Below are positions 8,512 to 16,364 of a DNA stretch of 64,000 nucleotides, piece after piece (the first letter of the stretch is position 1; each line of letters starts with the position of its first letter). This DNA comes from Salinirubrum litoreum (GTDB lineage: Archaea > Halobacteriota > Halobacteria > Halobacteriales > Haloferacaceae), in the NCBI RefSeq assembly GCF_020567425.1, contig NZ_JAJCVJ010000001.1, positions 1,302,001 through 1,366,000 of the forward strand. The letters are read 5' to 3'. The notes below the pieces were generated by a model. It was given only the letters and a program-made list of their open reading frames with translations. It did not search any database and was not told the DNA's origin. The translations under genes and the position numbers were made by a program.

Positions 8512-8820
8512 ATGACCGGCAACAGGGTCGAGGAACTCGAATCCCGCGTCGCGGAACTGCAGGCCACCGTCGACGGCCTGACCGAGGAACTCGTCGAGAC
8601 GAAAGAACGCCTCCGTCAGTTGGAGGCCGACGAGGAACCGGCACGCGTGTCCCGCACGACGGACGCGAACACCGAGGTCGTCCGCACCGAACGCGAGCAG
8701 TCTGCGGAGGCCGAGCCAGACGGCGAGTCGGAGACGGCGGCCGAAAGTGATACCACCGAGGCGGCGGAAGACGCAGAGGACGAGGCCGAGTCCGAGAGCA
8801 GCGACATCATCGTCGCGTAA
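8512..8820 (+). CDS. Small coiled-coil acidic protein upstream of smc (DUF7518-like)
   Basis: This 102-residue protein has a heptad-patterned coiled coil at residues 4-40 (VEELESRVAELQATVDGL) and then a very acidic Ser/Glu/Thr tail ending SSDIIVA. Haloarchaea often carry such a gene right before smc, annotated as DUF7518; I make that match from memory. The ATG at 8512 starts the coiled coil; an ATG nine codons upstream gives an unlikely Arg-rich prefix. Only 29 bases separate it from smc, so co-transcription is likely. Confidence 0.78.
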   Translation: MTGNRVEELESRVAELQATVDGLTEELVETKERLRQLEADEEPARVSRTTDANTEVVRTEREQSAEAEPDGESETAAESDTTEAAEDAEDEAESESSDIIVA

Positions 8821-8849: not shown

Positions 8850-11800
8850 ATGCACATCAAAAAGCTCGTCCTCGACGACTTCAAGAGCTTCGGCAGAAAG
8901 ACCGAGATTCCGTTCTACGAGGACTTCACCGTCGTCACCGGCCCGAACGGGTCGGGCAAGTCGAACATCATCGACGGGGTGCTGTTCGCGCTCGGACTCG
9001 CCCGGACGCGCGGCATCCGCGCCGAGAAGCTGACCGACCTCATCTACAACCCCGGGCACGCCGACGAGTCGGCGTCCGGCGGCGGCGCGCGCGAGGCGAG
9101 CGTCGAGGTGATCTTGGACAACGAGGACGGGCGACTCGACCGGTCGCAGGTGGTCTCGGCGGCCGGCAGCGAGAACGTCGGCAGCGTCGACGAGATCAGC
9201 ATCAAGCGCCGGGTGAAGGAGACCGAGGACAACTACTACTCCTACTACTACCTCAACGGGCGCTCGACGAACCTCTCCGACATCCAGGACCTGCTCGCGC
9301 AGGCCGGCGTCGCGCCCGAGGGGTACAACGTCGTCATGCAGGGCGACGTGACCGAGATCATCAACATGACCCCGTACCAGCGCCGGGGCATCATCGACGA
9401 GATCGCGGGCGTGGCGGAGTTCGACGCGAAGAAGGAAGACGCCTTCGAGGAACTGGAGACCGTCAAGGAACGCATCGGCGAGGCGGACCTCCGCATCGAG
9501 GAGAAACAGGACCGACTCGACCAACTGGCGGACGAACGCGAGACGGCACTGGAGTACCAGTCGCTCCGCGAGGAGAAAGAGGAGTACGAGGGCTACCTGA
9601 AGGCCGCCGAACTGGAGGACAAGCGCTCGTCGCTCAACCGCGTCACCGGCCAGATCGACGCGAAGGAAGACGAACTCGCCGAGAAGCGGTCGGAACTGGA
9701 CGAGCGACAGGGGCGCGTCACCCGACTCGAAGCCGAGTTGGACGACCTCAACAGAGAGATCGAGCGCAAGGGCGAGGACGAACAGCTTCGCATCAAAAGC
9801 GAGATCGAGGAGGTCAAAGGCGAGATCAGCCGGCTGGAAGACGCCATCGAGACCGCCGAGGGGCGCATCGAGGACGCCGAGTCCGAGCGCCGCGAGGCGT
9901 TCATGAAGATCGACCGGAAGCAGGAGCAGATCGACGAGTACGACGACGAACTCCGCGAGATCAAAGTCGAGAAAGCCTCCGTGAAGAGCGACATCGCGTC
10001 GAAGCGCGGCGACCTCGCGGAGGTCCAACAGGAGATCGAGAGCGTCGACACCGAGTTCGACGAACTGAAAGCCGACCTCGCGGACGCGAAAGACCGGCTG
10101 GAGGAGTTGAAGACCGAGCGAAACGACGCGCAGCGCGAGAAGGACCGCCTGTTGGACGAGGCCCGCAGACGCTCCGAAGAAGTCGAACAGGCGCAGGCCG
10201 ACCTCGAGGAGGCGCACGGTCGCATCCCCGATCTGAAGGCCGACCTCTCCGATCTGCACAGCGAACTCGACAAGGCACGCAAGAACGAGTCGAAGGCCGA
10301 CGAGGCGCTCGCGGATCTGAAACAGGAGAAGCGCGAACTGCAGGACGAACTCGACGACGTGAAGGCCGACATCAACGCCAAACAGTCGGAGTACGCCGAC
10401 CTGGAGGCGAAGACCGACGACGGCGGGAGTTCGTGGCCGCGAGCGGTCTCGACGATCAAGAACGCCGGGATGTCGGGCGTCCACGGTGCGGTCGGCGAAC
10501 TCGGCAGTGTGCCGGCCGAGTACGCGACCGCCTGTGAGACGGCCGCCGGCGGGCGACTGGCGAACGTCGTCGTGGACGACGACCAGGTCGGGTCGGACTG
10601 CATCGACTACCTGAAGCGCCGGAACGCGGGGCGGGCGACCTTCCTCCCGATCACCGAGATGGACGACCGCGGGCTGCCGCGACTCCCGAACCGACCGGGC
10701 GTCGTGGACTTCGCCCGGAACCTCGTGGAGTACGAGTCGCAGTACGAGGGCATCTTCTCGTACGTCCTCGGGTCCACGCTGGTCGTGGAGGACATGGACA
10801 CCGCCCGGTCGCTGATGGGCGACTACCGGATGGTGACGCTGGACGGCGACCTCGTCGAGAAGTCCGGCGCGATGACCGGCGGGTCCGGCGGCGGATCGCG
10901 CTACTCGTTCTCGAAGTCCGGCGGCGGGAAACTCGAACGACTCGCCGCCGAGATCGGCGACCTCGAAGACGAGCGCCGGTCGCTGAACGAGGAGATCCGC
11001 GAGGTGGAGTCCAAGTTGGACGACGCCCGCGACCGCAAGAGTTCGGCGGGCCAGCAGGTCTCGAAGATCGAAGGGCGGATCGACGCGACCGAGGACGACC
11101 TCGCCGACGCCGAGAGCGAGATCGACGGTCTCGAAGAACGCCTCGAAGACCTCCGCGAGGAACGCGCCGAGGTGGACGAGGAGATGCAGACGGTCGAGGA
11201 GACGATCGCCGAGAAACAGGAGGCGGTCGCCGAGGTCGACGCCGAGATCGACGACCTCGAGGCGGAACTGGCCGACTCGCGCGTCCCGGAACTGACGAGC
11301 CGAAAAGAGGAGATCGAGTCGGCCATCGCCGAGCACGAGGAGCGGATGGACGATCTGGACGGCCGACTCAACGAACTCCAGTTGGAGAAGCAGTACACCG
11401 AGGAGGCCGTCGACGACCTCCACGACACCGTCGAGTCCGCCCAGAACCGGAAGGCCGAACAGGAGGAGACGATCGCCGAGTTAGAGGCCGAGATCGACGA
11501 ACAGGAGGACCTGCTCGCCGAGAAGCGCGAGGCGGTCGAGGAGTTAGAAGAAGAACTCACCGAACTGAAAGACGACCGGCGCGATCTGCAGGGGACACTC
11601 CGGGAGGCGAAGGAGAAACGCGACGACGCGAAGGAGACGGTCTCGACCGTCGAGTCGACGCTCTCGACGCTGACCGACCGGCGGGATCGACTGGAGTGGG
11701 AGATCGACGAGTTGGAGTCGCAGGTCGGCGACTACGACCCCGAGGAGATTCCGAGCCACGACGAGGTGGAGGCGACCGTCGAGCGACTCGACGGCGAGAT

Positions 11801-12431
11801 GGAGCAGTTGGAACCGGTCAACATGCTCGCCATCGAGGAGTACGACGAGGTGCAGAGCGATCTGGACGACCTCCAGGAGGGCCGCGACACCCTCGTCGAG
11901 GAACGGGACGGGATCAGAGACCGGATCGACTCCTACGAGGCCCAGAAGAAGGCGACGTTCATGGCGGCCTTCGAGAGCATCGACGAGCAGTTCCGCGACA
12001 TCTTCGAGCGTCTATCGGACGGTACCGGCGAACTCCACCTCGAAGACCCCGAAGACCCCTTCGATGGCGGCCTGACGATGAAGGCGCAACCGGGCGACAA
12101 GCCGATCCAGCGGCTGAACGCGATGTCCGGCGGCGAGAAGTCGCTGACCGCACTCGCCTTCATCTTCGCCATCCAGCGACACAACCCCGCGCCGTTCTAC
12201 GCACTGGACGAGGTGGACGCCTTCCTCGACGCCGCGAACGCCGAGCGCGTCGGCGAGATGGTGGACGACCTGGCGGGCGAGGCGCAGTTCGTCGTCGTCT
12301 CCCACCGGTCGGCCCTGCTCGAACGGTCGGAGCGCGTCATCGGCGTGACGATGCAGGAGAACAACGTCAGCGCCGTGACCGGCATCCAGTTGGCCGAGGC
12401 CGACGGCGAGGAGGTGCCGGCGGATGACTGA
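8850..12431 (+). CDS. smc: Chromosome segregation protein SMC
   Basis: This 1193-residue protein has the full SMC plan. The Walker A GPNGSGKSNI is at residues 31-40, followed by a long coiled coil (about 170-500). A hinge lies around 510-680 with glycine-rich GGSGGGSRYSFSKSGGGK near its end, then a second coiled coil (about 695-1010). The C-terminal ATPase half has the signature LNAMSGGEKS near 1088 and Walker B FYALDEVDAF near 1115. It organises and condenses the chromosome with the kleisin ScpA, whose gene follows. Confidence 0.97.
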   Translation: MHIKKLVLDDFKSFGRKTEIPFYEDFTVVTGPNGSGKSNIIDGVLFALGLARTRGIRAEKLTDLIYNPGHADESASGGGAREASVEVILDNEDGRLDRSQVVSAAGSENVGSVDEISIKRRVKETEDNYYSYYYLNGRSTNLSDIQDLLAQAGVAPEGYNVVMQGDVTEIINMTPYQRRGIIDEIAGVAEFDAKKEDAFEELETVKERIGEADLRIEEKQDRLDQLADERETALEYQSLREEKEEYEGYLKAAELEDKRSSLNRVTGQIDAKEDELAEKRSELDERQGRVTRLEAELDDLNREIERKGEDEQLRIKSEIEEVKGEISRLEDAIETAEGRIEDAESERREAFMKIDRKQEQIDEYDDELREIKVEKASVKSDIASKRGDLAEVQQEIESVDTEFDELKADLADAKDRLEELKTERNDAQREKDRLLDEARRRSEEVEQAQADLEEAHGRIPDLKADLSDLHSELDKARKNESKADEALADLKQEKRELQDELDDVKADINAKQSEYADLEAKTDDGGSSWPRAVSTIKNAGMSGVHGAVGELGSVPAEYATACETAAGGRLANVVVDDDQVGSDCIDYLKRRNAGRATFLPITEMDDRGLPRLPNRPGVVDFARNLVEYESQYEGIFSYVLGSTLVVEDMDTARSLMGDYRMVTLDGDLVEKSGAMTGGSGGGSRYSFSKSGGGKLERLAAEIGDLEDERRSLNEEIREVESKLDDARDRKSSAGQQVSKIEGRIDATEDDLADAESEIDGLEERLEDLREERAEVDEEMQTVEETIAEKQEAVAEVDAEIDDLEAELADSRVPELTSRKEEIESAIAEHEERMDDLDGRLNELQLEKQYTEEAVDDLHDTVESAQNRKAEQEETIAELEAEIDEQEDLLAEKREAVEELEEELTELKDDRRDLQGTLREAKEKRDDAKETVSTVESTLSTLTDRRDRLEWEIDELESQVGDYDPEEIPSHDEVEATVERLDGEMEQLEPVNMLAIEEYDEVQSDLDDLQEGRDTLVEERDGIRDRIDSYEAQKKATFMAAFESIDEQFRDIFERLSDGTGELHLEDPEDPFDGGLTMKAQPGDKPIQRLNAMSGGEKSLTALAFIFAIQRHNPAPFYALDEVDAFLDAANAERVGEMVDDLAGEAQFVVVSHRSALLERSERVIGVTMQENNVSAVTGIQLAEADGEEVPADD

Positions 12432-12498
12432 CGACCCGGTCCCCGGGGAGCGCCTGTGGACGCCCGGCGACTCGGTCGTCGGGGAGGCGGCGCGATGA
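12424..12498 (+). CDS. Candidate 24-residue ORF between smc and scpA
   Basis: An ATG embedded in the end of smc (ATGACTGA, overlap 8 bases) opens a frame coding for MTDDPVPGERLWTPGDSVVG plus four residues. It stops in an ATGA that overlaps the scpA start. Overlaps at both ends would couple translation across the 63-base gap between smc and scpA. It could be a real micropeptide or just a translational bridge; composition is compatible with haloarchaeal coding. No family is recognised. Confidence 0.4.
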   Translation: MTDDPVPGERLWTPGDSVVGEAAR

Positions 12499-13484
12499 CC
12501 GAACCACCCGAGACGCTGGCGGCCGCCGGCGTCGACCCGGACGCGGCGGTCGGCGTCGAGGCCGGTGACGGCGAGGGGGACGAGGAGGTCGAACCGGTCG
12601 AACTGCTCGTCACGCTCGCCGAGGAGGGTGAGATCGAACCGTGGGACATCGACATCGTCGCCGTCACCGACGCCTTCCTCGACCGACTGGACGCGACCGA
12701 CCTCCGGACCTCCGGCCGGGCGCTCTTCTACGCCAGCGTGCTCCTCCGGATGAAGAGTGACGCCCTGCTGTCGGACGACGACGAAGCGGAGGAACCCGAG
12801 GCCGAACCGTGGGAACTGGCGATGCAGGGCGGGCCGGGCGGAGACGGCGGTGCGGGTGGACCCGGCGGGGCGGACGGTGATCCGGGCTTCGACCCCGTCG
12901 ACGCACTCGAAGACGAGATGGACCGCCGGCTGGAACGGAAGTCGGCACGCGGCAACCCGGAGACGCTGGACGAACTCGTCCGGGAGTTGCGGGAGGCCGA
13001 ACGCGGGTCGTGGTGGAAGGAGCGCCGTGAGTACGACACCAGCGAGTCGCCGAAGGGGTTCTCGCGCGGGACACAGACGCTCGACTACCACAGCGCGGAC
13101 GACCTGCGGCGCGACGAGGAACCGACCGAGGGCGACGTGACCGGGACGACGCACAAAGAGGACATCGAGGAGACGATCTCACACGTCCAGCGCAGTCTGC
13201 GCGAGCAGTACGATCAGGGGCGCAACGAGGTACTGTTCGCCGAAGTCCGGGACGTCGGCGGGACCGTCGTGGCGACGTTTCTCGCCCTGCTGTTTCTCTC
13301 ACACCGGGGGCACGTGCTGCTCCAGCAGGACGACCTGTTCGGCGACCTGTGGATCAGGAACCCGGCCGTCGACTGGTCCGACGAGGAAGCGGCCGACGGT
13401 GACGAAGCGAGTGCCGGTGAGGAAGAGACGACACCGGCAGAGACCGGCGAGTCGGCGGTGGTCGCGGAGACCGACGACGACTGA
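12495..13484 (+). CDS. scpA: Segregation and condensation protein ScpA (kleisin)
   Basis: This 329-residue protein has the kleisin N-terminal pattern EPVELLVTLAEEGEIEPWDIDIVAVTDAF, split here as residues 33-61, followed by RALFYASVLLRMKSDALL. Its C-terminal winged-helix segment near 250-295 (VVATFLALLFLSHRGHVLLQQ) would bind the SMC head. A Gly/Pro-rich insert (about 105-130) and an acidic tail are haloarchaeal elaborations. The ATG at 12495 was preferred over an upstream alternative because it overlaps the stop of the short ORF. It acts with the adjacent smc product. Confidence 0.93.
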   Translation: MTEPPETLAAAGVDPDAAVGVEAGDGEGDEEVEPVELLVTLAEEGEIEPWDIDIVAVTDAFLDRLDATDLRTSGRALFYASVLLRMKSDALLSDDDEAEEPEAEPWELAMQGGPGGDGGAGGPGGADGDPGFDPVDALEDEMDRRLERKSARGNPETLDELVRELREAERGSWWKERREYDTSESPKGFSRGTQTLDYHSADDLRRDEEPTEGDVTGTTHKEDIEETISHVQRSLREQYDQGRNEVLFAEVRDVGGTVVATFLALLFLSHRGHVLLQQDDLFGDLWIRNPAVDWSDEEAADGDEASAGEEETTPAETGESAVVAETDDD

Positions 13485-15897: not shown

Positions 15898-15956
15898 TTC
15901 GAGAGTGCTTACAAATAGAGAGTTGCGTGCGATTCGGTTCAGAGTCCGGCGTGCGC

Positions 15957-16023
15957 GACCCCGACGCGCGCGAGGGAGGCGGGCGCTCTCGTGCGCCCGC
16001 CGAGGCTGGGGAGGACCGAGGTG
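15957..16023 (-). repeat. Two-hairpin unit of composite locus B
   Basis: On the minus strand this is the CTCCCCAGCCTCG unit. Its hairpin is GCGGGCGC (16000-15993) with GCGCCCGC (15986-15979) and a six-base loop, followed by CTCCCTCGCGCGCG. The stem sequence is unrelated to those at loci A, C, E and F, yet fully complementary. Confidence 0.65.
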
Positions 16024-16364
16024 CGGTGCTGTCGCGGTGGCCGTGCTGTGCGGTCCCGTGCGCTAGCAATCGCGGCGGTCGCGGTTGCTGTCGCGGTCGA
16101 ATATTCCGTTTGTCCCGGATCGAGTAGCAGTGCTGGTGCAGTCGCGGTGCGGGTTGCGGTTCGTGGTGTCGTTGCAGTCGCGGTCGCAGTGCGGGTCGCG
16201 GTTGAGGTTCGCGGTCCCGGCGTCGTTGTAGTCACGGTCGCGGTTCGCAGTGCCGACATCGTTCCACCCACAACCACAGTCACAGTTCGCAGAGTCCACG
16301 TCACACGCTATCAACCCGTCATAGAACGGAACCGATATACGACCCGGACATCTACGCCGGACGT

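Follow-up and report, generated by a model that had tools for sequence, protein, structure and literature searches.

The smc and scpA genes of Salinirubrum litoreum are joined by a 24-codon micro-ORF that probably serves as a translational stepping stone from the first gene to the second, whatever its sequence. Its peptide is probably functionless, and the ORF most likely arose by an indel or insertion. The junction lies in the window, by which we mean the whole 64,000-nucleotide stretch of DNA analysed here, from a genome of 4.06 Mb in 5 contigs. Its features (positions counted from the first letter of the window) are:

8512-8820, + strand: DUF7518 protein of 102 aa, function unknown (PF24362, 83.5 bits), ending 29 nt before smc
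8850-12431, + strand: smc (SMC_prok_A; family model TIGR02169, 1335.9 bits), with terminal codons GAT GAC TGA
12410-12416, + strand: GGAGGTG, a Shine-Dalgarno (SD)-like motif within smc, 7 nt 5' of the micro-ORF ATG
12424-12431, + strand: ATGACTGA, the 8-nt overlap of micro-ORF start and smc stop; this is the scpA start in most relatives
12424-12498, + strand: micro-ORF of 24 codons, the proposed translational relay (ATG, 23 codons and TGA; MTDDPVPGERLWTPGDSVVGEAAR)
12483-12487, + strand: GGAGG, an SD-like motif within the micro-ORF, 7 nt 5' of the scpA ATG
12495-12498, + strand: ATGA, the 4-nt overlap of micro-ORF stop and scpA start
12495-13484, + strand: scpA, 329 aa, with its ATG at 12495 (family model PF02616, SMC_ScpA, 51.6 bits)

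A sequence-only reading of the same DNA had reported an ORF of this length and position that starts within the end of smc and shares an ATGA with the scpA start. Re-reading the sequence confirmed the length and position exactly, as well as both overlaps (8 nt and 4 nt). The claim that the ORF bridges the gap between the two genes also holds, since all 63 nt of that gap (12432-12494) lie within it.

In Haloferax volcanii, gaps of 13-14 nt markedly lower reinitiation and gaps of 22-23 nt abolish it or nearly so, according to excerpts of PMC10666635. Because a gap of about 22 nt abolishes termination-reinitiation there, the 63-nt gap in the window should uncouple ScpA unless it is bridged. We propose that ribosomes completing smc would reinitiate at the ATG overlapping the smc stop, read 24 codons, terminate at the TGA (12496-12498) and reinitiate once more at the overlapping scpA ATG. 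ScpA synthesis would thus remain tied to SMC synthesis despite a scpA start 63 nt past the smc stop. The micro-ORF would have been left behind when an indel or insertion shifted a former scpA start, the same ATG, out of the scpA frame. That ribosomes follow this route and that selection for coupling maintains it we infer from the comparisons below. No RNA hairpin stands out at the junction, as the segment 12404-12520 folds no better than its shuffles (z +1.0; 176 of 200 shuffles at least as stable), and a scan restricted to bacterial-type promoter models showed nothing like a promoter or terminator in the gap. We set aside a programmed -1 frameshift into scpA, because the spacer scores as non-coding in the scpA frame.

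Junctions for comparison came from two sources: 99 genomes of the family, and named genomes, where the best 80 of 236 confirmed places were used. The resulting 174 loci gave 151 distinct smc-scpA junctions, after two copies of the window locus (L001 and L009) and five unreadable loci had been dropped (L077, L083, L176 and L185, where the ScpA core motif was not found, and L187, a fragment without smc). In 126 of the 151, the codon whose first base is at -8, counted back from the end of the smc stop, opens scpA in frame. This codon is ATG in 117 and GTG in 9, usually seen as ATGACTGA, and ScpA then carries an N-terminal tail of 18-175 residues ahead of its conserved core. An uninterrupted frame that is conserved, together with the SD motif, makes the -8 codon look like the genuine scpA start in these junctions.

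In the other 25 junctions, the window included, the two frames are split and scpA begins further downstream. Of these 25, 23 have a micro-ORF of 6 to 108 codons that overlaps the smc stop at its beginning and the scpA start at its end. Its overlap with scpA measures 4 nt in 16 of the linked junctions and 8 nt in 7, and its start is the ATG at -8, except in L034 and L144, where it is at -11. The two split loci without the link, L074 and L116, are both in metagenome-assembled genomes. L079, a near relative of L074, does have the link, and no in-frame scpA start was found in L116.

The split arrangement has appeared repeatedly. The tree of SMC together with the ScpA core implies at least 13 changes of state, of which at least seven are forced by well supported branches; it was built by a quick method whose support values are approximate. 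The sequence-only reading had named absence of the ORF or its overlaps from close relatives as refuting its proposal, and the answer is divided. The start overlap is retained and a separate ORF arose many times; the nearest relatives, on the other hand, lack a distinct ORF, since there the ATG in question reads in frame into scpA. The proposed coupling by reinitiation is supported by the repeated retention of both overlaps among relatives, independently of sequence.

The same reading had suggested that the ORF sets the SMC:ScpA ratio. With two reinitiation steps, each below full efficiency, less ScpA per SMC would be made than in species with a direct overlap. Such an effect follows from the anatomy if the relay works, and reinitiation efficiency does differ among gene pairs, as excerpts of PMC6728339 report. 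However, closely related species that share the complex differ freely in their number of steps (in Halonotius, L049 is split and L050 is in frame), which argues against a finely tuned ratio. We regard ratio setting as improbable.

A sequencing or assembly indel could also produce a split, in which case the true scpA start would be 12424, with one continuous frame like that of most relatives. Adding or removing one base would bring back this usual arrangement, the reading frame of the ORF has a coding-like composition, and the comparison sample contains a single genome of the window's genus. Against this, scpA from 12495 begins normally (MTE...), shares an ATGA with the micro-ORF stop and has an SD motif 7 nt upstream, features that a chance frameshift would not create. 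Moreover, a short ORF ending on the start of the next gene is found not only in the window but in 22 further split junctions, complete chromosomes among them (e.g. L094 and L110, Salinibaculum). An error of this kind is thus very unlikely to explain the window's junction.

Does the chain of overlaps exceed chance? At the window's junction alone, 68% of shuffled spacers end in the scpA start (P 0.68, keeping the ATG in place and scpA in another frame), so its stop-start coincidence, taken by itself, is not improbable once an out-of-frame ATG is given. Across the split loci, compared with shuffled spacers in random frame, 23 of 24 are linked where 14.4 would be expected (P 3.9e-6, kinship ignored); L116, although counted among the 25, is excluded here since its scpA start was not found. 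As near relatives are not independent, the shuffle test was repeated by clade. For 13 clades the product of P values ranges from 2e-4 (mean per clade) to 1e-3 (maximum per clade), and if the mixed clade L074/L079 is scored as a failure, the clade-level P is 0.005 to 0.02.

The peptide is not kept. Within the Halolamina clade alone, micro-ORF length varies from 6 to 69 codons. L066 and L068 both have 19 codons, with 65% nucleotide identity in the spacer versus 96% in the smc and scpA core. The sequence-only reading had offered a micropeptide as a second role, and the ORF is probably translated. Its peptide, however, has no match in a family-model search, and sister species differ in both its length and its sequence, so that neither a known family nor conservation in relatives marks it as a microprotein. 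On these grounds a functional micropeptide was rejected, and we hold one to be extremely unlikely. The same differences between sisters are what a relay whose peptide sequence is unimportant would show. Turnover of length and peptide with persisting overlaps fits selection for an unbroken stop-start chain, not for the peptide.

The start signals are retained. An SD motif of at least 4 nt precedes the -8 start in 125 of the 126 in-frame junctions and in all 25 split ones, and such a motif lies upstream of 20 of the 23 linked scpA starts, inside or just ahead of the end of the micro-ORF (raw counts throughout). All 25 split loci have the GAT codon from which the micro-ORF ATG is formed, while over the ~200 SMC codons before it GAT accounts for 59 of 506 Asp codons. 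In the seven species of the Halolamina clade, the ATG-forming GAT occurs in 7 of 7, though not always at one position or with one stop codon (TGA or TAG), and ten other common Asp columns have GAT in 0 to 2 of 7 each. In nine split loci of the other main branch, GAT never exceeds 4 of 9 in any of seven common Asp columns. Part of this retention could be inheritance from in-frame ancestors.

Some of the micro-ORFs have a visible origin. Halobellus captivus (L061), unlike its sister L153, carries a 23-nt tandem duplication of the SD-ATG-stop segment, which yields an 8-codon micro-ORF and its overlaps in one step. The micro-ORF of Halonotius aquaticus (L049) likely has a similar tandem-duplication origin. 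Repeats were also found within the split spacers of L080, L089 and L104. In L089 (Halapricum hydrolyticum), a bridging ORF of 108 codons contains repeated segments and its overlaps to smc and scpA are intact; similar repeat-rich spacers occur in L080, L104 and L110, and a similar in-frame tail in L105. For the window ORF itself, tandem duplication is unsupported (copy score 13 versus a maximum of 20 with other loci). Its coding signal of 0.29 log-odds per codon is the highest of the split loci (others -0.80 to 0.21), and the ScpA tails of in-frame relatives have a median of 0.41. Because its codon signal is the strongest among the split ORFs, we favour a detached former N-terminal tail of scpA as its probable origin.

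A detached tail need not do anything. The ORF could be an inert relic of the 5' end of scpA, with scpA initiating independently at the ATG at 12495 via its own SD motif. The coding-like composition of the window ORF, the nearest among split loci to that of in-frame tails, agrees with such a relic, as does the SD motif 7 nt ahead of scpA. An inert remnant would be expected to lose its start and the coincidence of its stop with the scpA start, yet both are retained in 23 of 25 junctions even though length and sequence differ, and the GAT forming the ATG persists against codon usage. Furthermore, de novo initiation in H. volcanii is not driven by SD motifs, whose contribution to reinitiation varies, according to excerpts of PMC6728339. 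We therefore judge a passive relic to be unlikely, and return to the translational relay as the preferred reading.

Similar bridges were sought beyond smc-scpA on 800 kb of the window's contig, where gene calls by our own script gave 717 genes and 438 co-directional pairs. Among out-of-frame ATGs overlapping a stop, 5 of 8 are bridged to the next gene, with 2.2 expected; control ATGs (0 of 4) are too few to compare. GTG bridges (20 of 81, control 13 of 79) exceed shuffles, but are not clearly above the control. One of the bridged ATG cases is the junction of priS (PF01896) and the next gene, where a 7-codon ORF with 4-nt overlaps at both ends joins the two (G000 contig C1 267,968-267,986; L201 7,968-7,986). 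The gene after priS, which we take to be GINS, has no Pfam match at 1e-8. Of the best 30 of 97 family genomes with the gene, 23 have priS and its neighbour in direct overlap (4 or 1 nt); where the second gene is displaced, 5 of 7 are bridged by ORFs of 5-8 codons, and L246 and L254 are unbridged. At the priS junction of L232, CAGAGAATGA occurs twice, a tandem-duplicated stop-start overlap that gives a 5-codon bridge. On the window's contig, a pair of branched-chain amino acid permeases is joined by a 26-codon bridge. These further bridges support generality, but they are few. We also observed about 4 tandem copies of a unit of about 30 nt, each with GTGA, between co-directional genes on the minus strand of G000 contig C1 (~335,900-336,065; L204 ~15,900-16,065).

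It seems to us evenly balanced whether relay micro-ORFs free of sequence requirements are a general haloarchaeal device, one that would keep operons translationally coupled across inserted DNA. Tandem duplication of a stop-start-SD segment would be one way of making them, and they would persist because about 20 untranslated bases are the most a ribosome can cross. Were the device general, some of the gene pairs now annotated as separated by a gap would have a hidden coupling. If the relay at smc-scpA is real, a coupled gene pair can survive an insertion or frameshift with its coupling intact, and intergenic distance alone may undercount coupled pairs in archaeal genomes. Translated ORFs with a peptide of no consequence would then form a class of their own, which calls for caution in annotating microproteins. 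The junction would also offer a natural series, a single operon across many species with micro-ORFs of 6 to 108 codons, in which to study how long a chain of reinitiation can be.

We found no description of micro-ORF relays between archaeal genes in the open literature, a search that covered few subscription journals. Short ORFs that promote translation of the next gene have been reported in bacteria, such as mgtQ, between mgtC and mgtB of Salmonella (PMC8092293), and the two-codon minigene of axe-txe (PMC8708949), which likewise lie in an intergenic or leader position. As far as the outline of the former and the abstract of the latter go, these act via RNA structure and acidic peptide residues, or via mRNA protection, with no mention of a stop-start relay, whereas no unusual structure is seen at the window's smc-scpA junction.

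That a short ORF may deliver a ribosome is already in print, together with the case of the mycobacterial MIRUs (PMC12548453, as excerpted). The short upstream ORF described there resembles the proposed role of the window ORF, in that its sole job is to bring a ribosome to the next start. Unlike it, the window ORF would be fed by the upstream gene, lies inside an operon, is archaeal and has arisen repeatedly at one junction. MIRUs, in the same excerpts, likewise place an ORF in inserted DNA with a -4 spacing onto the start of the next gene. They are repeated and apparently mobile, whereas, at the sensitivity of our search, the window spacer occurs once in its genome, with none of ten secondary matches covering it (query 133-195).

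The closest parallel is with the termination-reinitiation (TeRe) gene pairs of H. volcanii and E. coli (Huber et al. 2019, PMC6728339; 2023, PMC10666635), as excerpts of both reports describe them. Their preferred overlaps are 4, 1 and 8 nt, enriched among genes for subunits of one complex. The window is alike in its 4- and 8-nt overlaps, in having the SD motif inside the upstream frame and in coding for subunits of one complex. Both ends of the micro-ORF have a same-strand overlap of these sizes, and both ATGs have an SD motif at the 3' end of the upstream frame, a usual but not obligatory trait of such pairs. In TeRe pairs, however, two protein genes overlap directly, whereas in the window a non-conserved micro-ORF is interposed and two successive overlaps link smc to scpA.
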